From: Synergistaceae bacterium
Lineage (GTDB): Bacteria > Synergistota > Synergistia > Synergistales > 79-D21
Assembly (NCBI GenBank): GCA_012517195.1
Contig: JAAYVK010000080.1
Span: forward strand, 1 to 32,673
Reading direction: 5' to 3'
DNA: 32,673 bases
This document shows positions 2,810-14,830 of the stretch, in pieces. Each line of letters opens with the position of its first letter. Within the stretch, counting starts at the first letter, position 1. The notes below the pieces were generated by a model. That model was not told where the DNA came from and did not search any database. It saw only the letters and a program-made list of their open reading frames with translations. The position numbers and the translations under genes were made by a program.

Positions 2810-3822
2810 GCGGGTCTGAAGCCGGAGCTGCAATCGCGCTCTGGTGGAACCGGGAAAACGGAAGCATCCGCTGTACTCTTTGCCCGCACCGGTGCCTGAT
2901 CAAACCGGGGCAGCGGGGGCTTTGCGGGGTCCGGCAGGCTTCAGCGGACGGACAATCCCTCGAGGCCCTGAATGCCGGTCTGGCGGCCGCCATCCATCTG
3001 GATCCCATCGAAAAGAAGCCGCTGTTCCACTGGCAGCCGGGCAGCCGGATCCTTTCGGTCGGAACGGTCGGCTGCAATCTTGCCTGCCCTTTCTGTCAGA
3101 ATTGGGAGCTGGCTCGCTGGGATCCCACCGTGGGGCTGTTCAGGATTGCGCCTCAGGACCTCCTGAAAGCTGCAAGGGATTCGGGAAGCGGGAGTGTGGC
3201 CTTCACTTACAACGAACCGCTTGTCTGGTACGAATTTCTCCGCGAAGCAGCGCCGCTCCTTCGAAAGGAAGGGTTCGACGTCGTCCTGGTCACCAACGGC
3301 ACCATCAACCCGGATCCCCTGGAGGCCATCCTTCCTTTTGTTTCAGCGGCAAACGTCGATCTCAAGGCTTTTTCGGAAACGGCCTACCGGAAGATGGGGG
3401 GATTTCTCCAGCCAGTCCTGGAAACGATCCGCACCTTGAAAAGGTCCAATGTCCATGTGGAACTCACGCACCTGCTCGTACCGGGGATCAACCTCGAAAG
3501 AGCCTCCTTTGAAAAAATGGTGGAGTGGATTGGCGACCTGGATGAAACGATTCCGCTCCACCTTTCCCGGTATTTCCCGCGGTGGAAGTGGACCGAACCC
3601 GCAACCCCCCTGCCGGTCATGGAAGAGTTCCGGCAGATCGCATCCGGCAGGCTTTTCTACGTTTACCTGGGCAACCTGTCCGGCCTGGGAATCACCCGAT
3701 GCAGAAAATGCGGACGTGACATCGTTGTACGCGATGGATATAATGTTGTGCAGCTTGAATTAGATTTATTGGGAAAGTGCCGGTTCTGCGGACAGGAGAA
3801 CGGATTCGTTGTTCGCCGGTAA
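2806..3822 (+). CDS. amrS: AmmeMemoRadiSam system radical SAM enzyme (AmrS)
   Basis: A 338-residue radical SAM protein. The [4Fe-4S]-SAM cluster motif is C90-N-L-A-C94-P-F-C97 (CxxxCxxC). An N-terminal cysteine cluster (C23, C26, C30, C40) and a C-terminal pair of CxxC motifs (RCRKCG and KCRFCG) flank the core, as is typical of the AmrS branch of the pyruvate formate-lyase activating enzyme-like family. FTYNEP (core) and VTNGTINPDPLEA fit that family. I start at ATG 2806, whose ATGA overlaps the stop of the MEMO-AMMECR1 gene; an upstream in-frame start at 2764 would lie inside that gene. Substrate and product are unknown. The 3' end of this gene is unusually AT-rich and contains a consensus-like promoter for the following hut operon. 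Confidence 0.92.
   Translation: MSGSEAGAAIALWWNRENGSIRCTLCPHRCLIKPGQRGLCGVRQASADGQSLEALNAGLAAAIHLDPIEKKPLFHWQPGSRILSVGTVGCNLACPFCQNWELARWDPTVGLFRIAPQDLLKAARDSGSGSVAFTYNEPLVWYEFLREAAPLLRKEGFDVVLVTNGTINPDPLEAILPFVSAANVDLKAFSETAYRKMGGFLQPVLETIRTLKRSNVHVELTHLLVPGINLERASFEKMVEWIGDLDETIPLHLSRYFPRWKWTEPATPLPVMEEFRQIASGRLFYVYLGNLSGLGITRCRKCGRDIVVRDGYNVVQLELDLLGKCRFCGQENGFVVRR
3716..3744 (+). promoter_or_regulatory. Sigma70-type promoter ahead of the hut operon, inside amrS
   Basis: GTGACA (3716-3721), a 17-base spacer and a perfect TATAAT (3739-3744) lie within the last 110 bases of amrS. The -35 matches 5 of 6 bases and the -10 all 6. Transcription would start near 3751, leaving a leader of about 115 bases before hutH at 3867. 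The segment is AT-rich compared with its GC-rich surroundings. Because it lies in coding sequence, some of the match could be chance. Confidence 0.6.
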
Positions 3823-3866: not shown

Positions 3867-5399
3867 TTGGACGGAAAAGTGATCGCACTGAACGGACACT
3901 CTCTCTCGCTCGAAGACGTCGTAAAGGTTGCGAGGGAAGGATTTGGAGTCTCCCTCGATCCCGCAGCGGTGACCTTCGTGGAGAGGGGAGGGCGTATCGT
4001 CAGGGAATGGGCCAGGGATGGAAAGGTAATCTACGGGATTACGACGGGATTTGGGGACCTGGCTTCAGTTTCGATTCCGCCCGATCAAAGTGAATTACTT
4101 CAGAAAAATCTCCTCCTGAGCCATGCCTGCGGAGTGGGGGAACCTTTGCCGGAAGACGCGGTGAGGGCTATCATGCTGCTGAGGATCAACACTTTGACGC
4201 GGGGATTTTCCGGGATCAGCCTGGAAACCCTGACTCAGCTCGTCAATTACCTCAACCTGGGAATCCACCCGGTGATTCCAAGCCAGGGTTCCGTAGGTGC
4301 CAGCGGTGATCTATGCCCTCTTTCCCACCTGGCGATCACCCTTCTCGGTGAAGGAGAGGTTTTCTATGGGGGCCGCAGGATGCCGACAGCCAGGGCCCTC
4401 CAGGAAACCGGCCTGAAGCCCGTTTCCCTGAAACCCAAAGAGGGGCTGGCCCTGAACAACGGAACAGCCTTCATGGCCGGCCTGGCGGCTCTTGCCGTCT
4501 ACGATGCATCGCTGCTCTCCAAGGTCGCAGACATCGCCGCGGCTCTTTCCCTCGAAGCGCTGCACGGAGTCCCCTACGCCTTCGACCCCAGGACTCATGA
4601 ACTTCGGCCCCACACTGGGCAAAAACTGGTGGCGGAGAACATCCGGACCCTGATCAAGGATAGCCGGATCATTGAACGCTTCAAGGGCAACCGCGTCCAG
4701 GACGCCTATTCCCTGCGCTGCGTCCCCCAGGTGCACGGGGCCAGCCGCGATGCGCTGGAATTCGTTCGGGGCAAGATCGACCTCGAGATCAACTCCGTGA
4801 CGGACAACCCGATCATTTTCCCCACGGACGGCATCGCCATCAGCGGAGGCAACTTCCATGGACAGCCCATCGCCCTGGCCATGGACTTTTTCGGTATCGC
4901 CGTCGCAGAACTTGCAGACATTTCGGAGAGAAGGGTCGCCCGGCTTGTGGACCACAAGCTTTCCGGACTGCCCCCGTTCCTTGTGCCCGAAAGCGGCCTG
5001 AACAGCGGATTCATGATCCCGCAGTACACGTGCGCAGCCCTTGTTTCCGAGAACAAGGTCCTGGCTCACCCAGCTTCCGTGGATTCGATCACGACCTCGG
5101 CCTGCCAGGAAGACCACGTTTCCATGGGAGCCCATGCAGCCCGGAAGGCCAGGACTATCCTGGAAAACACCTTCAACGTCCTGGCTATCGAGATCCTGAC
5201 GGCAGCCCAGGGCATCGACTTCAGCCTGCCCCTGAAGCCGGGAAAGGGAACGGAAGCCGCCTACGCTGCGGTGCGGGAGGCCGTCCCCTTCTACGAAAAG
5301 GATGCCTTCATGGAACCGCTGATCCGGGAGGTCCACCGGATCACCCGTTCCGGAAAGATCGTGGCGGAGGTCGAAGCCGCCGTCGGCCGATTGAACTGA
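3867..5399 (+). CDS. hutH: Histidine ammonia-lyase (HutH)
   Basis: HutH removes ammonia from L-histidine to give trans-urocanate, the first step of histidine breakdown, in the cytoplasm. The 510-residue length is normal. The signature GSVGASGDLCPLSHLA contains Ala145-Ser146-Gly147, which self-condenses into the MIO electrophile. YGITTGFG (Tyr56), NGTAFMAGLAAL, RCVPQVHGA and the C-terminal TSACQEDHVSMG are other family motifs. The start is TTG 3867, supported by AAGGAGG at 3853-3859 with 7 bases spacing and by the typical N-terminus (ALNGHSLSLEDVVKVAREG). It is the first gene of the hut operon and is followed at once by the transporter genes. Phenylalanine/tyrosine ammonia-lyases share the fold, but hutU, hutI, ftcD and fchA downstream settle the assignment. 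Confidence 0.97.
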   Translation: MDGKVIALNGHSLSLEDVVKVAREGFGVSLDPAAVTFVERGGRIVREWARDGKVIYGITTGFGDLASVSIPPDQSELLQKNLLLSHACGVGEPLPEDAVRAIMLLRINTLTRGFSGISLETLTQLVNYLNLGIHPVIPSQGSVGASGDLCPLSHLAITLLGEGEVFYGGRRMPTARALQETGLKPVSLKPKEGLALNNGTAFMAGLAALAVYDASLLSKVADIAAALSLEALHGVPYAFDPRTHELRPHTGQKLVAENIRTLIKDSRIIERFKGNRVQDAYSLRCVPQVHGASRDALEFVRGKIDLEINSVTDNPIIFPTDGIAISGGNFHGQPIALAMDFFGIAVAELADISERRVARLVDHKLSGLPPFLVPESGLNSGFMIPQYTCAALVSENKVLAHPASVDSITTSACQEDHVSMGAHAARKARTILENTFNVLAIEILTAAQGIDFSLPLKPGKGTEAAYAAVREAVPFYEKDAFMEPLIREVHRITRSGKIVAEVEAAVGRLN

Positions 5400-5427
5400 A
5401 ATCTGGATCTGAAGGAAGACGACCGTC

Positions 5428-6294
5428 ATGCAGCTTTTTCTCGAACAAATGCTGAACGGCATCGCCATCGGGGCGATCTATGCGATGATCACGCTGGGAC
5501 TGGCCCTGGTGTATGGGATCCTCCGGATCCTCCACGTGGCCCATGCCGCCGTTTATACGGTGGGAGCCTACATCGGACTTGCGATCTTCTCCGCCACCCA
5601 CAGCATCCTCCTGTCGGCCGCGGGAGCCATGGTGTTCTGTGCCGGCCTGGGGTTTCTGATCGAGCGGTTCGTCTATTTCCCGCTTTTGAAATACCCTCCC
5701 TATGTCCCTCTCATCGGGAGCATTGCCTGCCTGCTTGCCATAGAAGAGCTCTGCCGTCTCGCGGCGGGCCCCTACATCCTCTCGTTTCCAGCCCAGCTGC
5801 CGTTCCCGAGCTTCACGGTGGGGGGGATCGTGATTTCCTCCACGCTTACGGCGGTTTACTGCATCAGTGCCGGGGTTCTTGCCCTTCTCTGGTTCATCAC
5901 GACGAGAACCGAGCTCGGCCTTGCCATGCGGGCGACGTCGCAAGACATGGCGATCGCGAGCTCGATGGGGATCAACAGTCACCGGATCATCTCCCTGACT
6001 TTCATGATCGGTTCGGCGGTGGCCGCGATCGCCGGCATCCTAGTGGGGATCTACTACAACCAGGTCTATCCCTCGATGGGAGCGGTCCCTGCCTACAAGA
6101 CCCTGGCTTTGATCGTCGTCGGGGGGCTGGGTTCGGTGCCGGGTGCGGTTCTGGCATCGATTCTCCTCGGGGTCGGGGAAACCCTGCTGATCGGCTACGC
6201 GGGCATTCCTCTCCCGCGGGATGCCCTGGCCTTCATTGCCATGATCGCCGTTCTTCTCTGGCGCCCGCAGGGACTCCTCGGCGGCCGCGGGTAG
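5428..6294 (+). CDS. livH: HAAT-type amino acid ABC transporter permease (LivH-like)
   Basis: A 288-residue, highly hydrophobic inner-membrane permease of the hydrophobic/branched-chain amino acid transporter family. The family N-terminus is clear (LNGIAIGAIYAMITLGLALVYGILRILHVAHAA), as is the late cytoplasmic loop MGINSHRIISLTFMIGSAVAAIAGIL and the C-terminal LLWRPQGLLGGRG. About eight membrane segments are expected. It starts 28 bases after hutH behind a GGAAG site and precedes its partner permease by 16 bases. The position between hutH and hutU suggests that the transporter brings in histidine or a related pathway substrate and not Leu/Ile/Val; this is inference from context, since sequence alone does not show substrate. 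Confidence 0.93.
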   Translation: MQLFLEQMLNGIAIGAIYAMITLGLALVYGILRILHVAHAAVYTVGAYIGLAIFSATHSILLSAAGAMVFCAGLGFLIERFVYFPLLKYPPYVPLIGSIACLLAIEELCRLAAGPYILSFPAQLPFPSFTVGGIVISSTLTAVYCISAGVLALLWFITTRTELGLAMRATSQDMAIASSMGINSHRIISLTFMIGSAVAAIAGILVGIYYNQVYPSMGAVPAYKTLALIVVGGLGSVPGAVLASILLGVGETLLIGYAGIPLPRDALAFIAMIAVLLWRPQGLLGGRG

Positions 6295-6310
6295 AGGAGG
6301 AAAGACTTCC

Positions 6311-7192
6311 ATGAGCGAGTATTCGATCACCATCGGGACCTTGATCGCCATCCAGGCAATCGTCGCCTGCGGCCTGAATGTCATTGTCGGCTACGCCGGG
6401 CAGATTTCACTGGGACACGCAGCCTTCTTCGGAATCGGAGCCTATGCCTCGGCCCTTCTGACCACGGCAGGGGGGCTTTCCTTCTGGAGCGCGCTGCCAA
6501 TCGTCCTGGGGATCACCGGGCTCATCGGGCTGTTTCTGGGACTTCCGAGCCTCCGTCTGAGAGAAGACTTCCTGGCGATCACCACCATCGGGATCAACTT
6601 CATCGTCGTGTCCGTTTTCCAGTACGTCCCCTTTTTCGGCGGGGCCCTGGGGATTGGAGGAATCCCCAGGATCGTCCTTTTCGGGGAACGGATCAGGGGA
6701 GTTTCCTTCCTGCTCCTGAGCGCGGGCTTCCTCGCCATCACTCTCCTGATCTGCTGGCTGTTCACCCGGAGCTGGTCGGGCCTGGCCTGCTTCGCCCTCC
6801 GGGAGGACGAGACCGCCGCATCCAGCATGGGGGTGTCCCCCGTGCGGTTCAAGCTGACCGCCTTCATCCTGGGGACAGCCATGGCGGGGCTGGGCGGAGC
6901 CCTCTACGCCCATTTCATGCGCTTCATCAGCGCCACCGATTTCGGCTTTCCCATGTCGGTCATGATCCTGTCCATGGTCGTCCTGGGAGGCATGGGGACG
7001 CTGTGGGGCCCGGTCCTGGGCGCCCTCGTCCTGGGCATTCTTCCGGAGGTGTTCAGACCCCTGACGGATTACCGGATGTTCCTTTACGCGGCCCTCCTCC
7101 TGCTTATGATCCGTTTCCAGCCGGGGGGTCTTTTGGGAGAGAACAGCCTGGCCAGGCAGACCCTTTCCAGGCTGAAGGGAGGGAAGTCCTGA
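6311..7192 (+). CDS. livM: HAAT-type amino acid ABC transporter permease (LivM-like)
   Basis: The second permease, 293 residues, with the diagnostic LivM motifs GLNVIVGYAGQISLGHAAFFGIGAYASALL near the N-terminus, SLRLREDFLAITTIGI in the middle, ALREDETAASSMGV in the ABC-contacting loop and VVLGGMGTLWGPVLGA near the end. It pairs with LivH to form the membrane channel. A strong GAGGAGG-like site lies just before ATG 6311, and its stop overlaps the livG start by one base (TGATG at 7190-7194), indicating translational coupling. Confidence 0.93.
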   Translation: MSEYSITIGTLIAIQAIVACGLNVIVGYAGQISLGHAAFFGIGAYASALLTTAGGLSFWSALPIVLGITGLIGLFLGLPSLRLREDFLAITTIGINFIVVSVFQYVPFFGGALGIGGIPRIVLFGERIRGVSFLLLSAGFLAITLLICWLFTRSWSGLACFALREDETAASSMGVSPVRFKLTAFILGTAMAGLGGALYAHFMRFISATDFGFPMSVMILSMVVLGGMGTLWGPVLGALVLGILPEVFRPLTDYRMFLYAALLLLMIRFQPGGLLGENSLARQTLSRLKGGKS

Positions 7193-7959
7193 TGGACGAA
7201 GCCCTTCTAAGCCTGCGTGAGATCTCCATGCACTTCGGGGGCCTGAAGGCCCTGGACAAGGTTTCGTTCGATCTGCGGGAAGGAGAGATCCTCGGATTGA
7301 TCGGCCCGAACGGCGCCGGCAAGACCACCTGTTTCAACACCGTATCGGGGGTCTACCGCCCGACCTCGGGAGAAATCCGATTCCGCGGAACCCGGACGGA
7401 CGGCCTGCCTCCCCACCGGATGGCCGCCCTGGGAATCGGCCGGACCTTCCAGATCGTCCGCCCCTTCCCGAACCTGACGGTCCTGGAAAACGTCATCGTG
7501 GCCGCGGGCCTGAACTGCTACGGGAAACTGATCCCCTCCTGCCGTCCCTGGAAAGGTCGCAAGACCCGGGAAGAAGCGATGGAAATTCTCGCCCGGGTAG
7601 GGCTTGATAGCCAGGCAGAACAGAAAGCGGGGCTCCTGCCCCTGGGCAACCTGAGGCGGCTCGAGCTGGCGAGAGCCCTGGCGCTGAAACCGCATCTTCT
7701 GCTCCTGGACGAATCGTTCTCGGGCCTTCGGCACGAGGAGATCGCCCAGCAGGAGGAACTGGTCCGGAAAACCCGGGAGAGCGGGATCTCGATCCTTCTC
7801 ATCGAGCACAACATGAGGGTCGCCATGGGATTGTGCGACCGGCTGGTGGTCCTCGACCACGGGATGAAACTGGCCGAGGGGAAACCGGAATCCATCCGGA
7901 ACAATCCGGAGGTCATCCGGGCCTACCTGGGCAAGGGGGGCAGCGCCAATGCTTCTTGA
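7192..7959 (+). CDS. livG: HAAT-type amino acid ABC transporter ATP-binding protein (LivG-like)
   Basis: A cytoplasmic ATPase of 255 residues. The Walker A motif is GPNGAGKTT, the Q-loop region is GRTFQIVRPFPNLTVLENV, and Walker B is LLLLDES with the catalytic Glu kept. The signature loop reads LPLGNLRRLELARAL in place of the classical LSGGQ; relaxed signatures such as this are frequent in LivG-type proteins, so I do not treat it as damage. HNMRVAMGLCDRLVVLDHG carries the switch His. The start is ATG 7192, overlapping the livM stop; longer in-frame extensions lie inside livM and lack family similarity. It overlaps livF by 11 bases and probably heterodimerises with it. Confidence 0.94.
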   Translation: MDEALLSLREISMHFGGLKALDKVSFDLREGEILGLIGPNGAGKTTCFNTVSGVYRPTSGEIRFRGTRTDGLPPHRMAALGIGRTFQIVRPFPNLTVLENVIVAAGLNCYGKLIPSCRPWKGRKTREEAMEILARVGLDSQAEQKAGLLPLGNLRRLELARALALKPHLLLLDESFSGLRHEEIAQQEELVRKTRESGISILLIEHNMRVAMGLCDRLVVLDHGMKLAEGKPESIRNNPEVIRAYLGKGGSANAS

Positions 7960-8659
7960 GGTCCGCGATCTCCGGATCGCCTACGGGGATATCGAGGCCG
8001 TTCACGGGGTTTCCTTCTCGGTGGAGGAAGGCGAGCTGGTTTCCATCATCGGCGCGAACGGGGCAGGGAAAAGCTCGATCCTGAACGCGATCATGGGGCT
8101 GGTGCCCTCCCGTTCCGGGTCGATCCGCTTCAAGACGGCGGAAATTTCCAGAATGGCCGCTCATGAACGGGCACGGGCCGGGATTCGACTTGTGCCGGAA
8201 AGGGCACGCGTTTTTCCCCGGCTGACGGTCATGGAAAACCTACGGGTCGGCCTTTATGGGATCCACGATAGGTCCCGGGAAGAAAAACAGCTTGAATGGC
8301 TTTACTCCCTTTTCCCGATCCTGGCGGAAAGGAGCGGGCAGAATGCCGCGACGCTCTCCGGAGGGGAGCAGCAGCAGCTCGCCATCGCAAGGGCCTTGAT
8401 CTCCGATCCCCGGCTTCTGCTGGTGGACGAAGTTTCCATGGGGCTCATGCCGAAGCTGGTGGAAGAGGTGTTCACGGTCCTGCAGGAACTGAACCGTCAG
8501 AAGGGGCTGACGATCCTGCTGGTGGAGCAGAACGCCCTGGCGTCGCTCGAGATTTCCAAACGCTCCTACGTCCTGGAAACCGGGAGGATCCAGTTTGAAG
8601 GCGAATCCAGGGTCCTGAAGGATGACCCGCGAATTCGCGAGGCCTACCTGGGCCTTTGA
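7949..8659 (+). CDS. livF: HAAT-type amino acid ABC transporter ATP-binding protein (LivF-like)
   Basis: A 236-residue ATPase, normal length for LivF. It has Walker A GANGAGKSS, a canonical signature LSGGEQQQLAIARAL, Walker B LLLVDEVSMGL and the switch His region with ILLVEQN. LVPERARVFPRLTVMENL is a typical LivF Q-loop neighbourhood. ATG 7949 lies 11 bases before the end of livG. It completes the HLMGF order; the binding protein follows 51 bases later. Confidence 0.94.
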   Translation: MLLEVRDLRIAYGDIEAVHGVSFSVEEGELVSIIGANGAGKSSILNAIMGLVPSRSGSIRFKTAEISRMAAHERARAGIRLVPERARVFPRLTVMENLRVGLYGIHDRSREEKQLEWLYSLFPILAERSGQNAATLSGGEQQQLAIARALISDPRLLLVDEVSMGLMPKLVEEVFTVLQELNRQKGLTILLVEQNALASLEISKRSYVLETGRIQFEGESRVLKDDPRIREAYLGL

Positions 8660-8710
8660 GACCAGGCGCAAGAAACAGGATTCAAATTCATTTCGGGAGG
8701 TGTTTCGGAT

Positions 8711-9865
8711 ATGCGTGGTTTTCGGGTTTTTGCGGCTGTTCTGGTGATCCTGTGTCTTTCGATCGGCGTTGCTTCGGCGGCGGAGACGATCAAGATCGGG
8801 ATGCTGGCCCCCTTGACAGGGTTTGCGGCGGCAGACGGAGCCAGCGCCTTGAATTCCGTCAAAATCGCCGTTGACCAGGTCAATGGGCAGGGGGGAGTCC
8901 TGGGAAAGAAGATCCAGCTGATCGTCTACGATGACCGGGCCGACGCAAAAGAAGCGGTCGCTCTGGCCTATAAGCTCATCGAGCAGGACAAGATCGCTGC
9001 TTTCGTTGCTGGTTCCTATAGCCTTCCCACCCGGGCCGTTGCCCCGATCTTCCAGGAGGAGAAGATCCCCCTGGTCGCGGCCTACGCCATCCACCCGGAT
9101 GTCACCAAGGCCGGAGAATACTGCTTCAGGAACGGGTTTCTGGGCACGGTGGAAGGCAAGGCGGCAGCCTATACCGCCCATAAGCTCCTGAACGCCAAAA
9201 CGGTCGCGCTTTTGACCAGCGACAACGATTTCGGCCGGACCCTGGTCGAGGGATTCAAGATGTACCAGGCGAAATACGGCAAGGACATGAAGATCGTCTA
9301 CGAGCAGGCCTACCCCTTCAGCGAGAAGGACTTCAAGCCCTACCTATCCAAGATCAAGGAAGCCAACCCGGACGTGATCTTCGCCAGCGGCTACTATTTC
9401 CAGACCGGGCCGCTGCTCAAGCAGGCCCGGGAACTTGGAATCAAGTCGAAAATCCTCGGGGAGGAAGGGGCTGACTCCCCGAAACTGGCTGAAATCGCCG
9501 GAGAGGCAGCCGAAGGCTTCTACATCGTCACAAACTTCGACCGGGATGACCCCCGGCCCGTCGTCCAGAACTTCCTCAAGGAATACCGCAAGCGCTACAA
9601 GATCGAGCCGGACATGGTGGGAGCCTCGGCCTACGACGCTTTCATGATCATCGTAGACGCCATGAGGAAAACCAAGACCTATTCCAACCCCACCGCGATC
9701 CGGATGGCCATTTCCAAGACAACCAATTTTGATGGCCTGACCGGGATCATCAAGGGCTTCACCCACATCGGGGAAGTTGTGAAGCCGGTCCAGGTCCAGG
9801 TGGTAAAGAACGGTTTGTTCCGGCGTTTCGGAGTGGTGGACGATCCCGAGCTGATTCGTCCGTAG
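8711..9865 (+). CDS. livJ: Periplasmic amino acid-binding protein of the HAAT transporter (LivJ/LivK-like)
   Basis: A 384-residue substrate-binding protein. The N-terminus is a signal peptide: a charged start (MRGFR), a hydrophobic core (VFAAVLVILCLSIGVA) and a likely signal peptidase I site after ASA, before AETIKIG. There is no lipobox cysteine, which points to a soluble periplasmic protein and so to a cell with an outer membrane. The mature part starts KIGMLAPLTGFAAADG and continues INP-like (VDQVNGQGGVLGKKIQLIVYDDRAD), typical of type I periplasmic binding proteins of the Leu/Ile/Val family. A strong GGGAGGTG site precedes ATG 8711. Position in the hut operon suggests histidine or urocanate as ligand; this is inference. 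A stable hairpin follows the gene and may protect its mRNA. Confidence 0.93.
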   Translation: MRGFRVFAAVLVILCLSIGVASAAETIKIGMLAPLTGFAAADGASALNSVKIAVDQVNGQGGVLGKKIQLIVYDDRADAKEAVALAYKLIEQDKIAAFVAGSYSLPTRAVAPIFQEEKIPLVAAYAIHPDVTKAGEYCFRNGFLGTVEGKAAAYTAHKLLNAKTVALLTSDNDFGRTLVEGFKMYQAKYGKDMKIVYEQAYPFSEKDFKPYLSKIKEANPDVIFASGYYFQTGPLLKQARELGIKSKILGEEGADSPKLAEIAGEAAEGFYIVTNFDRDDPRPVVQNFLKEYRKRYKIEPDMVGASAYDAFMIIVDAMRKTKTYSNPTAIRMAISKTTNFDGLTGIIKGFTHIGEVVKPVQVQVVKNGLFRRFGVVDDPELIRP

Positions 9866-9889
9866 ACGTAGAAAGGGATCCTTGGAGGC

Positions 9890-9921
9890 GAGGGGTGTGC
9901 CCTAGTTCCCGCACACCCCTC
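9890..9921 (+). terminator. Stem-loop between livJ and hutU (attenuator or mRNA-stabilising hairpin)
   Basis: Perfect 11-bp inverted repeat: GAGGGGTGTGC (9890-9900) and GCACACCCCTC (9911-9921) with a 10-base loop. No T-run follows (the next bases are ATTCGCG), so it is not a classical intrinsic terminator. Such hairpins after transporter binding-protein genes often raise the abundance of the upstream mRNA by blocking 3' exonucleases; that role is inferred. Confidence 0.55.
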
Positions 9922-9968
9922 ATTCGCGAAAGGGAACGGAATGTTTCCCTCAGGAGGTGCATGAGATC

Positions 9969-12014
9969 ATGAGCATCAACAGAGAAATCGGCAAGGCCAT
10001 GACCATCAGGCTGGACGGCCCTTTTCCGCCGGATCCCGTTTTTGAACCCGGGATCCGGCGCGCCCCGAACCGGGGGTACAGCCTGAACCGCCGGGAAACC
10101 GAACTGGCGCTGAAAAACGCCCTCCGGTACATTCCCGAGGAGTGGCATGAAAGGCTCGCTCCCGAATTCATGCAAGAACTCCTGACAAGGGGGCGCATCT
10201 ACGGCTACCGTTTTCGGCCCCAGGGGAGGATCTGGGGGCGGCCCATCGACGAGTACGAGGGGAAGACAGTCGAAGGCAAAGCCTTCCAGGTCATGATCGA
10301 TAACAACCTGGATTTCGAAGTTGCCCTGTACCCGTATGAACTGGTTACCTACGGAGAAACGGGACAGGTGTGCCAGAACTGGATGCAGTACCGGCTCATC
10401 ATGAAATACCTCCAGATCATGACAGACGAGCAGACCCTCGTTGTGGCCTCGGGACATCCTCTGGGCCTGTTCCGTTCGCGTCCCGACAGTCCCCGCGTCA
10501 TCATTACAAACGGACTCATGGTGGGGATGTTCGACAACCAGGAGGAATGGCACCGGGCGATGCAGCTGGGGGTGTCAAATTACGGCCAGATGACTGCAGG
10601 GGGATGGATGTACATCGGCCCCCAGGGGATCGTCCACGGGACCTTTAACACGATCCTGAACGCCGGGCGCCTGAAACTGGGGCTGGGGCCAAACGAGGAC
10701 CTTTCCGGGCACCTGTTCATCTCCTCCGGACTGGGCGGCATGAGCGGGGCCCAGCCGAAAGCCGTGGAAATCGCCAGGGGAGTTGGAATTTTCGCGGAGG
10801 TGGACGCTTCCCGGATCGAAACCCGTCACAGCCAGGGATGGGTTTCCCGTGTCACGGCGAACCTGGACGAAGCCTTCCTCTGGGCGGAAAAAGCCATGGC
10901 GGAGAAAGAACCGCTCTCCATCGCCTACCACGGGAACATCGTGGACCTCCTGGAGTACGCCGTGAAGCAGGGAAGGAGGATCGACCTGCTCTCAGACCAG
11001 ACATCGTGTCATGCCCCCTATGACGGAGGCTATTGCCCGCAGGGACTCACCTTCGAAGAACGGACCGAAATGCTGGCAAAAGACCGGGCGGAATTCCGCC
11101 GAAGGGTCGACGAAAGCCTGCGGAAGCATTTTTCCCTGGTCAAGACGCTGGTGGAAAGGGGGACCTACTTCTTCGACTATGGGAACTCCTTCCTGAAGGC
11201 CGTTTTCGACGCCGGGGTGAAGGAGGTTGCCCGGAACGGCCATGACGAACTCGACGGGTTCATCTTCCCCTCGTACGTCGAGGACATTATGGGGCCGATG
11301 CTTTTCGACTACGGATACGGCCCCTTCCGCTGGGTCTGCCTGAGCGGGAGGCACGAGGACCTCGTCAAGACGGACCGTGCGGCAATGGAATGCATCGATC
11401 CAAACCGCCGCGGCCAGGACAGGGACAACTGGATCTGGATCCGGGATGCGGAGAAAAACGCCCTGGTGGTAGGAACACAGGCTCGAATCCTGTACCAGGA
11501 TGCCGGGGGACGGATGCGGATCGCCCGGCGGTTCAACGAAATGGTGCGGCGCGGTGAGATCGGCCCGGTCATGATGGGGCGAGACCACCATGACGTGTCG
11601 GGAACGGATTCGCCCTTCCGCGAAACCGCCAATATCAAGGATGGAAGCGCCATCACAGCCGATATGGCCATCCACTGCTTCGCCGGAAACGCCGCGAGGG
11701 GCATGAGCCTTGTGGCTTTGCACAACGGCGGGGGAGTGGGGATCGGGAAAGCCATCAACGGCGGGTTCGGACTGGTTCTCGACGGGAGCGAGAAGGCGGA
11801 TCGGGCGATCGAGCTTTCCCTGGCCTGGGACGTCATGGGAGGAGTGGCCCGGAGGGCGTGGGCCCGAAACGAAAACGCCCTGACCACCAGCATGGAGTAC
11901 AACCGCCAGCACCAGGGAACCGACCACATCACCCTGCCGTTCATTCCCGACGAGGAACTGGTCAGGGAAACCGTCAAAAAGGCCCTGGATCGAACCCTTG
12001 GAAAGGATGCCTGA
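9969..12014 (+). CDS. hutU: Urocanate hydratase (HutU), long form
   Basis: HutU adds water to urocanate using tightly bound NAD+ as an electrophile, giving imidazolonepropionate. The protein has 681 residues, far longer than the ~555-residue form of Pseudomonas or Bacillus and close to the ~676-residue animal-type enzyme. Recognised motifs are YGQMTAGGWMYIGPQGIVHG (~205-224), the NAD-binding GLGGMSGAQPKA (254-265), YHGNIVDLLEYA, LLSDQTSCHAPYDGGY (~340-355), GRDHHDVSGTDSPFRET and the C-terminal LHNGGGVGIGKAINGGFG. The start is ATG 9969, 9 bases after AGGAGGTG (9952-9959); the in-frame GTG 9957 overlaps that site. It begins the second half of the hut operon, after the transporter block. Confidence 0.96.
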   Translation: MSINREIGKAMTIRLDGPFPPDPVFEPGIRRAPNRGYSLNRRETELALKNALRYIPEEWHERLAPEFMQELLTRGRIYGYRFRPQGRIWGRPIDEYEGKTVEGKAFQVMIDNNLDFEVALYPYELVTYGETGQVCQNWMQYRLIMKYLQIMTDEQTLVVASGHPLGLFRSRPDSPRVIITNGLMVGMFDNQEEWHRAMQLGVSNYGQMTAGGWMYIGPQGIVHGTFNTILNAGRLKLGLGPNEDLSGHLFISSGLGGMSGAQPKAVEIARGVGIFAEVDASRIETRHSQGWVSRVTANLDEAFLWAEKAMAEKEPLSIAYHGNIVDLLEYAVKQGRRIDLLSDQTSCHAPYDGGYCPQGLTFEERTEMLAKDRAEFRRRVDESLRKHFSLVKTLVERGTYFFDYGNSFLKAVFDAGVKEVARNGHDELDGFIFPSYVEDIMGPMLFDYGYGPFRWVCLSGRHEDLVKTDRAAMECIDPNRRGQDRDNWIWIRDAEKNALVVGTQARILYQDAGGRMRIARRFNEMVRRGEIGPVMMGRDHHDVSGTDSPFRETANIKDGSAITADMAIHCFAGNAARGMSLVALHNGGGVGIGKAINGGFGLVLDGSEKADRAIELSLAWDVMGGVARRAWARNENALTTSMEYNRQHQGTDHITLPFIPDEELVRETVKKALDRTLGKDA

Positions 12015-12020
12015 TTGCAG

Positions 12021-12944
12021 ATGAGCAGGAAACTCCTGGAATGCGTTCCGAATTTCAGCGAGGGGAGACGACCGGAGGTCATCGAGGAGATCGTCACCCC
12101 ATTCCGAAACCGGGCCGGGTGCACCCTGTTCGACTACCGCGCAGACCCCGATCACAACCGCCTTGTCGTGAGCCTGGTGGGAGAGCCCGAGGCGCTCACG
12201 GAATCCCTTCTCCTGGCAGCGGAAACAGCCGTCCGGCACATTGACATGAATCATCACCAGGGAGCCCATCCCCGGATCGGGGCGATCGATGTCATTCCCT
12301 TCACCCCTGTCCAGGGAATGACGATGGAGGAATGCGTCGCTTTCTCCCATGAATTCGGGAAAAGGTTTTACGAAAAGACCCGGATCCCGGTCTATTTCTA
12401 CGAAGAGTCGGCCCTGAGGCCGGAGAGGACCCGCCTGGAGGTCATTCGGAAAGGACAGTACGAGGTCCTGAAGAACGAAGTGGAAAAGCCCGAACGCAGA
12501 CCCGACGTCGGAGAGCCGAGGCTCCACCCGACCGCCGGGGCAACAGTGGTGGGAGCAAGAAAATTCCTCGTGGCTTTCAACGTCAACCTCCGGACCACGG
12601 ATCTGGCGGTGGCGAAACGGATCGCGGCAGCGGTCAGGGCTTCGAGCGGCGGTCTCTGTGCCGTCAAGGGAATCGGCGTTGCCCTGGAGGACAAGGGAAT
12701 GGTCCAGGTCAGCATGAACATCGTCGATTACGAAAAGAACGCACTCTATCGAGTGCTTGAGATGATCCGGTTCGAGGCCCGCAGGTGGGGGGTCGAAATC
12801 GCTGAAACGGAAATCTACGGGATGATTCCGGCTCGAGCCATCCTGGAAAGCGCAGCCTATTACCTCCAGGTGGCGGATTTTGATCCCATGCAGGTTCTGG
12901 AACTGAAGCTTCTGGAAACGATGGGGAGCGAAGAAACCCGATGA
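12021..12944 (+). CDS. ftcD: Glutamate formimidoyltransferase (FtcD, transferase domain only)
   Basis: This enzyme transfers the formimino group of N-formimino-L-glutamate to tetrahydrofolate, releasing glutamate. The protein of 307 residues corresponds to the transferase half of the bifunctional animal enzyme; the cyclodeaminase is a separate gene (fchA) two genes downstream. The N-terminal LLECVPNFSEGRRPEVIEEI is diagnostic. HHQGAHPRIGAIDVIPFTPV (~78-97) contains the probable catalytic His83. GARKFLVAFNVNLRT and GGLCAVKGIGVALEDKGMVQVSMN follow. ATG 12021 gives the usual N-terminus; TTG 12015, two codons upstream and better spaced from AAAGGA (12002-12007), is an alternative. Its stop overlaps the hutI start by 4 bases. 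Confidence 0.95.
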   Translation: MSRKLLECVPNFSEGRRPEVIEEIVTPFRNRAGCTLFDYRADPDHNRLVVSLVGEPEALTESLLLAAETAVRHIDMNHHQGAHPRIGAIDVIPFTPVQGMTMEECVAFSHEFGKRFYEKTRIPVYFYEESALRPERTRLEVIRKGQYEVLKNEVEKPERRPDVGEPRLHPTAGATVVGARKFLVAFNVNLRTTDLAVAKRIAAAVRASSGGLCAVKGIGVALEDKGMVQVSMNIVDYEKNALYRVLEMIRFEARRWGVEIAETEIYGMIPARAILESAAYYLQVADFDPMQVLELKLLETMGSEETR

Positions 12945-14185
12945 CGGTCAAGCTTTTCGTCAACGCCCGCTGCTTCACTCCGATCGATCCAGGGCGCCCC
13001 CTGTCCGGAAATGACCAGGGAATGATCCGGGAGATCCCGAGAAGTGCGATCCTGACCCAGGACGGACGAATCCTCCAGATCGGCCCCGAACCGGAAGTAC
13101 TGGAGGCCGTAAGGCACTTGTCTCCGGACCAGGAAATCGATTGCGGGGGGCACTGCGTAATCCCGGGTTTTGTCGACCCCCATACCCATCTCTGTTTCCA
13201 CGGCTTGCGGGAATCCGAGTTCTCCATGCGGCTGGAAGGCATTCCCTATCTTGAAATCCTTCGGCGCGGCGGCGGAATTCTCTCTTCGGTGAAGCGGGTT
13301 CGGGCAGCCACAGAAGAAGAACTCTTTAAATCGACCCAGCAGCTTGCTCAATCTGCCCTGGCTCACGGGACGACAACGATCGAAATCAAGAGCGGATACG
13401 GCCTTGAAACGCAGGCCGAACTCAAGATGCTCCGGGTGATCGACCGGGTAGGCAGGCAGTCGCCGCTCGACGTCGTTCCAACCTTCATGGGCGCTCACGC
13501 CATACCGGAAGAATTCGCCGGCGATTCGGAAGGTTTCGTCGAGATGATCATCCACGAGATGCTGCCGGAGGTCGCAACCCAGGGGATCGCACGATTCTGC
13601 GACGTTTTCTGCGAGGAAGGGGTCTTTTCAATTGCCCAAAGCAGGCGTATCCTCGAAGCCGCGAGAGCCTTGGGGTTCGGAATCAAGATCCATGCGGACG
13701 AGGTCCACGACCTCGGAGGGGCGGGGCTGGCGGCCTCGGTCGGCGCCCTCTCGGCCGAGCACCTTCTCGCGGCTTCCGATGAAGGATTGAAAGCCATGGC
13801 CGCTGCCGGAACGATCGCGGTCCTCCTGCCGGCGACGGCCTACAGCCTGGGGAAACCCTTCGCCAGGGGAAGGGAAATGATCCGTCTCGGGGTTCCCGTC
13901 GCGCTGGCGACGGATTGCAATCCGGGATCCTGTTTCTGCGAGTCGATTCCCTTCGTGTTCGGTCTCGCCGTTTTGGGGATGAAGCTCTCCCCGGAAGAAG
14001 CGCTGACCGCGACCACCTTGAATGCGGCCTACGCGGTCGGACAGGCGAAGTCCTGCGGCAGCCTGGAACCTGGGAAAAAGGCGGATTTTCTCATCCTCGA
14101 GGGACAGACCCCGGCAATCCTTGCGTACCATGCGGGAGGATCTCCCGTTAAGGCCGTTTATAAGGGTGCAGAACGCGTTGTTTGA
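12941..14185 (+). CDS. hutI: Imidazolonepropionase (HutI)
   Basis: HutI hydrolyses imidazolone-5-propionate to N-formimino-L-glutamate. The 414-residue protein is an amidohydrolase-superfamily enzyme: CVIPGFVDPHTHL holds the HxH metal pair (His81 and His83), GTTTIEIKSGYGL is the substrate-loop motif, THP-like VVPTFMGAHAIP and IKIHADEVHD give further metal and catalytic residues, and ATDCNPGSCFCESIPF contains the active-site Asp. The start codon (12941) overlaps the ftcD stop as ATGA. Length and motif order are normal. Placement among hutU, ftcD and fchA leaves little doubt about function. Confidence 0.96.
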   Translation: MTVKLFVNARCFTPIDPGRPLSGNDQGMIREIPRSAILTQDGRILQIGPEPEVLEAVRHLSPDQEIDCGGHCVIPGFVDPHTHLCFHGLRESEFSMRLEGIPYLEILRRGGGILSSVKRVRAATEEELFKSTQQLAQSALAHGTTTIEIKSGYGLETQAELKMLRVIDRVGRQSPLDVVPTFMGAHAIPEEFAGDSEGFVEMIIHEMLPEVATQGIARFCDVFCEEGVFSIAQSRRILEAARALGFGIKIHADEVHDLGGAGLAASVGALSAEHLLAASDEGLKAMAAAGTIAVLLPATAYSLGKPFARGREMIRLGVPVALATDCNPGSCFCESIPFVFGLAVLGMKLSPEEALTATTLNAAYAVGQAKSCGSLEPGKKADFLILEGQTPAILAYHAGGSPVKAVYKGAERVV

Positions 14186-14203
14186 TTAGGAAAGGAGTAT
14201 TCT

Positions 14204-14830
14204 ATGCTCTCAGATCTTTCTCTTCGAGATTTTGTCAAAGAATTGGGTTCCGCCTCTCCAGCTCCCGGGGGCGGTTCGGCGGCTGCGCTTGCCGGAGCCC
14301 TGGCAAGCAGCCTCTGTTCGATGGTCGCAGCATTGACCGCCGGAAAGGAACGCTTCCGGGACGTATGGCCGGAAATGGTCGAAGCCGGTGAAAAAAGCAG
14401 GCAGCTTACGGAAAGACTGATCGAATTGATGGACCAGGACGCGGAGGCATACAACCGCGTCATGGAAGCGGTCAGGATGCCCAAAAGCACGGAGGAAGAA
14501 AAATCCCTCAGGGAACAGGCTCTGCAAGAAGCCCTGAAGGCCGCTTGCAGAGTCCCCCTTGAAACGGTGCAAACAGTCGCGAAAACGGCCCGCATTATGG
14601 AATCGCTCCTTTTCAAGGGAAACCCCAATGCGGTCACCGATGTCGGTTCGGCCGGAAGGCTCGCATGGGCAGCCGCCCATGCTGCGGCCTACAATGTCGA
14701 GGTCAACCTTAGGGGAATCAGCGATTCCTCCTTTGTGGAGGAAACCCGCAAGCAGCTGCGGTTCGAACTTTCGCAGGTCGAAGCTTCCGCCATTGTCGCG
14801 GAAGCCGAAATGCAGAAGCGGTTTTCTTAA
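14204..14830 (+). CDS. fchA: Formimidoyltetrahydrofolate cyclodeaminase (FchA)
   Basis: A 208-residue, mostly helical protein of the cyclodeaminase/cyclohydrolase family. The family N-terminus is obvious: LRDFVKELGSASPAPGGGSAAALAGALA, with LCSMVAALTAGK following, and NPNAVTDVGSAGRLAWAAAHAAAYNV near the C-terminus. It converts 5-formimino-THF to 5,10-methenyl-THF and ammonia, completing the pathway begun by FtcD. In amino-acid fermenters the methenyl group can be processed to formate with ATP formation. ATG 14204 follows AAAGGAG. It is the last hut gene; mltG starts only 6 bases after its stop and no terminator is visible, so the hut transcript may run on. Confidence 0.94.
   Translation: MLSDLSLRDFVKELGSASPAPGGGSAAALAGALASSLCSMVAALTAGKERFRDVWPEMVEAGEKSRQLTERLIELMDQDAEAYNRVMEAVRMPKSTEEEKSLREQALQEALKAACRVPLETVQTVAKTARIMESLLFKGNPNAVTDVGSAGRLAWAAAHAAAYNVEVNLRGISDSSFVEETRKQLRFELSQVEASAIVAEAEMQKRFS

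Follow-up and report, generated by a model that had tools for sequence, protein, structure and literature searches.

We propose that the five-gene ABC importer block lying between hutH and hutU in a Synergistaceae genome is a HAAT-family (Liv-type) importer specialised for histidine, to which we give a probability of roughly 0.7, with histidine deduced as the ligand from gene linkage and from the pocket of the receptor. The block would probably represent an undescribed HAAT subfamily, present in several phyla of mostly anaerobic bacteria, dedicated to histidine and reading the imidazole ring via an invariant Asp where the hydrophobic side-chain site used to be. The window, i.e. the whole stretch of 32,673 nucleotides that was analysed, corresponds to a complete contig (C2) from a draft genome of 1.23 Mb, whose completeness is estimated at 94%. 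Ten open genes in the order hutH-livHMGFJ-hutU-ftcD-hutI-fchA are tightly packed between 3867 and 14830, all on the + strand, which confirms the gene content, order and co-direction (five hut enzymes and a five-gene importer between hutH and hutU) described in an earlier, sequence-only reading of this DNA. The features are the following:

3716..3744, + strand: candidate promoter GTGACA-N17-TATAAT, with 11/12 consensus matches
3867..5399, + strand: hutH, histidine ammonia-lyase (TIGR01225, 673 bits, cut-off 539; MIO triad Ala-Ser-Gly in GSVGASGDLCPLSH)
5428..6294, + strand: livH-type permease (PF02653; under the LivH and UrtB cut-offs)
6311..7192, + strand: livM-type permease (PF02653; under the LivM and UrtC cut-offs)
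7192..7959, + strand: livG-type ATPase (PF00005 and BCA_ABC_TP_C; Walker A GPNGAGKT, Walker B LLLLDE)
7949..8659, + strand: livF-type ATPase (PF00005; Walker A GANGAGKS, LSGGE, LLLVDE)
8711..9865, + strand: livJ-type periplasmic binding protein, predicted histidine receptor (PF13458, 234 bits; AlphaFold2 pLDDT 93.6)
9890..9921, + strand: candidate 11-bp hairpin in the livJ-hutU gap (GAGGGGTGTGC / GCACACCCCTC; computed fold, stem kept in 4/4 same-genus loci)
9969..12014, + strand: hutU, urocanate hydratase, long form of ~680 aa (TIGR01228, 447 bits, cut-off 375)
12015..12944, + strand: ftcD, glutamate formimidoyltransferase (TIGR02024, 386 bits, cut-off 221)
12941..14185, + strand: hutI, imidazolonepropionase (TIGR01224, 471 bits, cut-off 298)
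14204..14830, + strand: fchA-type formimidoyl-THF cyclodeaminase (PF04961, FTCD_C, 224 bits)

Adjacent genes of the cluster overlap or are spaced by about 50 bases at most, the sole exception being a 103-base gap 3' of livJ. The start of livG was corrected to ATG 7192, with a TGATG start-stop overlap with livM, and hutU probably starts at ATG 9969 and not at GTG 9957, where its open frame begins. Because of the short gaps and overlapping starts, a single operon for histidine uptake and fermentation is the best explanation of the 3867-14830 stretch. The promoter-like site is located 122 bases 5' of hutH, inside the last (3') part of the radical-SAM coding sequence that precedes it, and is kept in 5/5 same-genus genomes, a conservation that may be due to coding constraint. 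As for the hairpin, a T-tract follows it in three relatives and none is found in the window; its conservation and the T-tracts of the relatives suggest that it terminates transcription in part or stabilises the message. The operon is flanked by housekeeping genes, namely queA, AMMECR1 and radical SAM upstream, and mltG, yqeH, tldD, ftsK, thiamine pyrophosphokinase, ispA and dxs downstream. At 1484-2809, a LigB (MEMO1-like) domain is fused to AMMECR1, adjoining the radical-SAM gene.

Histidine is degraded through urocanate, imidazolonepropionate and formiminoglutamate to glutamate and methenyl-THF, and the enzyme set, as assigned from family models, covers this hut route to its end. HutH, HutU, HutI and FtcD were identified by curated NCBIfam equivalog cut-offs and FchA by Pfam. 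FchA, which consists of a stand-alone FTCD_C domain, reaches 180 bits against the methenyl-THF cyclohydrolase cut-off of 275, a shortfall consistent with its predicted role as formimidoyl-THF cyclodeaminase. Thiourocanate hydratase of the ergothioneine pathway was rejected as an identity for the HutU of the window (311 bits, cut-off 930). Formyl-THF synthetase is represented in the same genome by two fragments, at contig ends; this enzyme could regain ATP from the one-carbon unit, and energy recovery is proposed on this basis.

The importer shows the complete HAAT make-up in one cluster, with two BPD_transp_2 permeases, two ABC ATPases and one Peripla_BP_6 receptor. LivJ has an N-terminal signal peptide visible in its sequence and, in the AlphaFold2 model, a type I periplasmic binding protein fold. 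Homology at the family level would make the block an ordinary Leu/Ile/Val importer whose position within the hut operon is due to chance or to shared regulation, and the nearest solved structures are indeed Leu/Ile-binding proteins of the LivK/LivJ kind (best match Tm LivK 3td9, TM-score 0.82 by query length). We regard this explanation as highly improbable, since all five proteins score well under the NCBIfam cut-offs of the Leu/Ile/Val models (bits/cut-off: LivH 142/379, LivM 193/366, LivG 247/362, LivF 213/441, receptor 155/477); the cut-offs, together with the receptor pocket, led us to reject a plain Leu/Ile/Val transporter as the leading reading. A urea importer (Urt) was discarded as well, the UrtA-E cut-offs being all missed.

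Pocket positions of LivJ were transferred by alignment to the E. coli Leu-binding protein at ~25-30% identity, and their contact roles are those we assume from general knowledge of Leu-binding proteins; the roles given here to individual residues are thus predicted ones. From the E. coli protein to LivJ, W18 changes to D42, G100 to Y125, T102 to Ile, Leu or Val127 and N103 to H128, and the resulting signature consists of D42, GSYS and Y125-A-[ILV]-H128. In 43/43 Synergistales orthologues D42, Y103, S104, Y125, H128, F174 and Y228 are invariant, position 78 (E. coli numbering) is Tyr, and Ser79 and Tyr202 are kept. Position 18 is occupied by Trp in E. coli and by an aromatic residue in the two further solved Leu/Ile receptors of the alignment. 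Instead of the aromatic residue at 18 and Thr at 102 that mark a leucine pocket, 43/43 Synergistales orthologues have Asp and Ile, Leu or Val, and this argues against Leu/Ile/Val as substrates, as does the lack of the pocket set in the three other LivJ-like receptors that the genome encodes. An Asp in place of the hydrophobic side-chain contact would be a natural partner for the imidazole ring. The acidic E226 of E. coli, corresponding to E252, is presumably the residue that holds the alpha-amino group of the ligand; it is Glu in 39/43 Synergistales and Gln in 4/43, and Glu in 58/58 receptors outside the phylum. Outside the phylum, Asp (D42) is likewise found in 58/58, a count partly selected by the search pattern, Tyr125 in 55/58 and His128 in 53/58, while position 102 is mostly Val, with Thr in 5/58.

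Within the genus, the gene order is intact in all genomes, save that in one of them (G004) the contig is interrupted between livJ and hutU, and identity reaches 91% for LivJ and 92% for HutH versus about 62-79% for the flanking genes. Across the 183 genomes of the order Synergistales, the LivJ orthologous group was defined at 58% identity or more, the next level down being a sharp drop to 45%; orthologues are present in 48/183 genomes, and livHMGFJ move together as a block. A LivJ orthologue lies at most 12 kb from hutH or hutU in 18/48 genomes, versus 0/150 among the matches listed for a control made of paralogous LivJ receptors retrieved with the C56 protein of the window genome as query, 102/150 of which are placed in genomes having hut genes. 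The difference gives a Fisher value of 6.5e-11 in genomes with hut genes, although the related genomes are non-independent and Fisher values overstate the significance. Same-genus synteny and this order-wide control led us to reject a chance embedding in the hut operon, and the linkage shows the block to be in the service of histidine degradation. Moreover, hutH or hutU is present in 47/48 LivJ genomes versus 74/135 of the remaining genomes, the sole LivJ genome with neither being 55% complete. The block could in principle be a broad-specificity amino-acid importer that takes histidine among others, since Bra of Rhizobium leguminosarum (BraDEFGC), a HAAT importer of broad specificity, carries histidine among many amino acids (PMC2978685). 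Recurrent linkage to one catabolic pathway, the near-constant co-occurrence with hut genes and the conserved, divergent pocket point rather to specialisation, and make such a broad importer quite improbable.

Linked arrangements differ within the order: hutH-liv alone at the same housekeeping site (G177, G178), hutH-liv-ftcD-hutI-fchA (G118), hutH-liv-hutI (G014), ftcD-hutI-hutU-liv (G025, G026) and hutU-other genes-liv (G131, G132, G164). In 30/48 Synergistales genomes no hutH or hutU lies within 12 kb of the block; some of these cases are due to short contigs and others are genuine, as in the complete genomes G168 and G170. An alternative conserved partner of the unlinked blocks was sought and rejected, for their neighbours vary by clade (an SNF symporter in g53, an IlvD/EDD-type dehydratase in genus g36, a methyltransferase in others) and none of them recurs as widely as the hut genes. 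The ilvD-like gene adjoining the block in g36 could be counted in favour of Leu/Ile/Val transport.

Some further observations concern the same neighbourhoods. A hutH-liv island occupies one site beside queA-AMMECR1-radical SAM in four families of the order (window 1-21434; L027, L030, L031, L051), and three of these families (f1, G118, G177/178) also have mltG-tldD beside the island, with varying retained hut genes. In 6 receptor clades the liv block has a gene for a small SAM-dependent methyltransferase next to it (L040:6922-7599, L042:11559-12341, L052, L053, L054, L059). In several Synergistales genomes there is another hutH-like gene, divergent (~50% identical) and close to a short hutU-like one (L043:3640-5355; G118:C1:138662 and 144216; G132:C1:826448 and 835272), and the hutU-like gene of G157 has its best score, below cut-off, for S-methyl thiourocanate hydratase. 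Perhaps this divergent pair degrades ergothioneine or another modified histidine. In G162 (100% complete; C5, C41), LivJ and hutH are present and hutU was not detected; its degradation may stop at urocanate.

When 84,980 species genomes were scanned with the receptor alignment, 80 loci were obtained, 58 of them outside Synergistota; the D42 and GSYS stretches belonged to the patterns that selected the cross-phylum loci, whereas Y125, H128 and E252 did not. The LivJ group was found in Desulfobacterota, Methylomirabilota, Bacillota and others. Outside Synergistota, hut genes are present in the fetched flanks of 41/58 loci in at least five different gene orders, which again speaks against a Leu/Ile/Val importer; overall, hut neighbours were found at 60/103 non-redundant loci and in 16/25 LivJ clades. 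Among these arrangements are hutU-ftcD-hutI-fchA-livHMGFJ in Desulfobacterota, livJHMGF-hutU-hutH in Syntrophaceae, hutH-livJ-hutU-hutI-livHMGF in Desulfurellales, hutH-livJHMGF in Methylomirabilota and livHMGFJ-hutU-ftcD-hutI-fchA in Desulfacinum infernum, a cultured species whose LivJ orthologue lies at L074:9001-10149. The sampled distant hutH, hutU and hutI genes clear their equivalog cut-offs, and beyond the liv genes the most widespread neighbours are hut genes. A quick tree places the receptors together and away from the Leu-type ones, its deep part being unsure on account of long outgroup branches, and linked and unlinked loci are interspersed, with 15 changes versus 22.5 in shuffles. 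One locus filed as a Spirochaetaceae MAG (L065) has a liv block with 78% receptor identity and is nested in Synergistota, through misbinning or transfer. The sequence-only reading had suggested an importer dedicated to histidine or urocanate, which homology alone would mis-annotate, and had proposed a search for the same gene order in relatives, where a lack of linkage would have counted against it. That search strongly upholds the reading and shows the transporter block to be linked to hut genes inside and outside the phylum, with a linkage that is not universal, and both this linkage and the LivJ pocket support a dedicated importer, for which the substrate is a predicted one.

As to which compound is carried, the main rival to histidine is urocanate. 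The main substrate could be urocanate or another imidazole compound (imidazole propionate or a thio-/methyl-histidine derivative), with histidine entering by another route. Many blocks adjoin hutU instead of hutH (G025, G026, G131, G132, G164 and many Desulfobacterota), and Thr102, which in Leu-binding proteins we take to contact the ligand backbone, is lost; for an imidazole compound other than histidine, it is also worth considering that the blocks of G157 and G145 lie beside a divergent short urocanase-like gene. Yet the acidic residue presumed to pair with an alpha-ammonium is retained, G162 has LivJ and hutH without hutU, and hutH is the only hut gene beside the block in G177, G178 and the Methylomirabilota loci L128 and L139. 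Both the kept E252 and the loci where hutH stands alone speak for histidine rather than urocanate, and we therefore consider urocanate or a related imidazole unlikely as the main substrate.

With histidine as the ligand, periplasmic LivJ would capture L-histidine and deliver it to the LivHM channel, LivGF would drive import with ATP, and HutH, HutU, HutI, FtcD and FchA would convert it to ammonia, urocanate, glutamate and methenyl-THF, the last being usable for energy via formyl-THF synthetase. The direction and mechanism of import are those expected from the HAAT family, and the pocket, once a site for hydrophobic side chains, would now fit an imidazole ring. Amino-acid fermenters such as Synergistota hold many Liv-type systems that homology would label Leu/Ile/Val importers. 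Here, one such system is given a specific, predicted substrate from cross-phylum linkage and a pocket signature visible in the sequence, and this signature (D at the W18 position, GSYS, YA-[ILV]-HP) can be used to re-annotate the family in other genomes.

Among known systems, E. coli LIV-I/LS (LivJ/LivK-HMGF) has in common with the block the five-part architecture, the domain families and the receptor fold. Unlike LIV-I/LS, the block falls under every Liv equivalog or subfamily cut-off, has a substituted pocket and is linked to hut genes. The urea importer UrtABCDE also shares the HAAT architecture and is set apart by its cut-offs. Bra differs by its description as a broad general permease, with no hut link described in the available part of its source. 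In Proteobacteria, histidine importers of the hut regulon, co-regulated with hut, comprise HisT, named as a permease, and the ABC systems HisJMPQ, HutXYZ and the predicted HisXYZ (PMC5343134). The block resembles these four in being tied to hut genes and in its predicted histidine uptake. To our knowledge, none of them has the five-gene HAAT make-up. In the searches made of open-access literature, no histidine-dedicated HAAT importer encoded alongside hut genes was found. The HAAT family and the carriage of histidine by a HAAT system are known; what would be new, and is well supported, is a histidine-dedicated HAAT importer within hut clusters.
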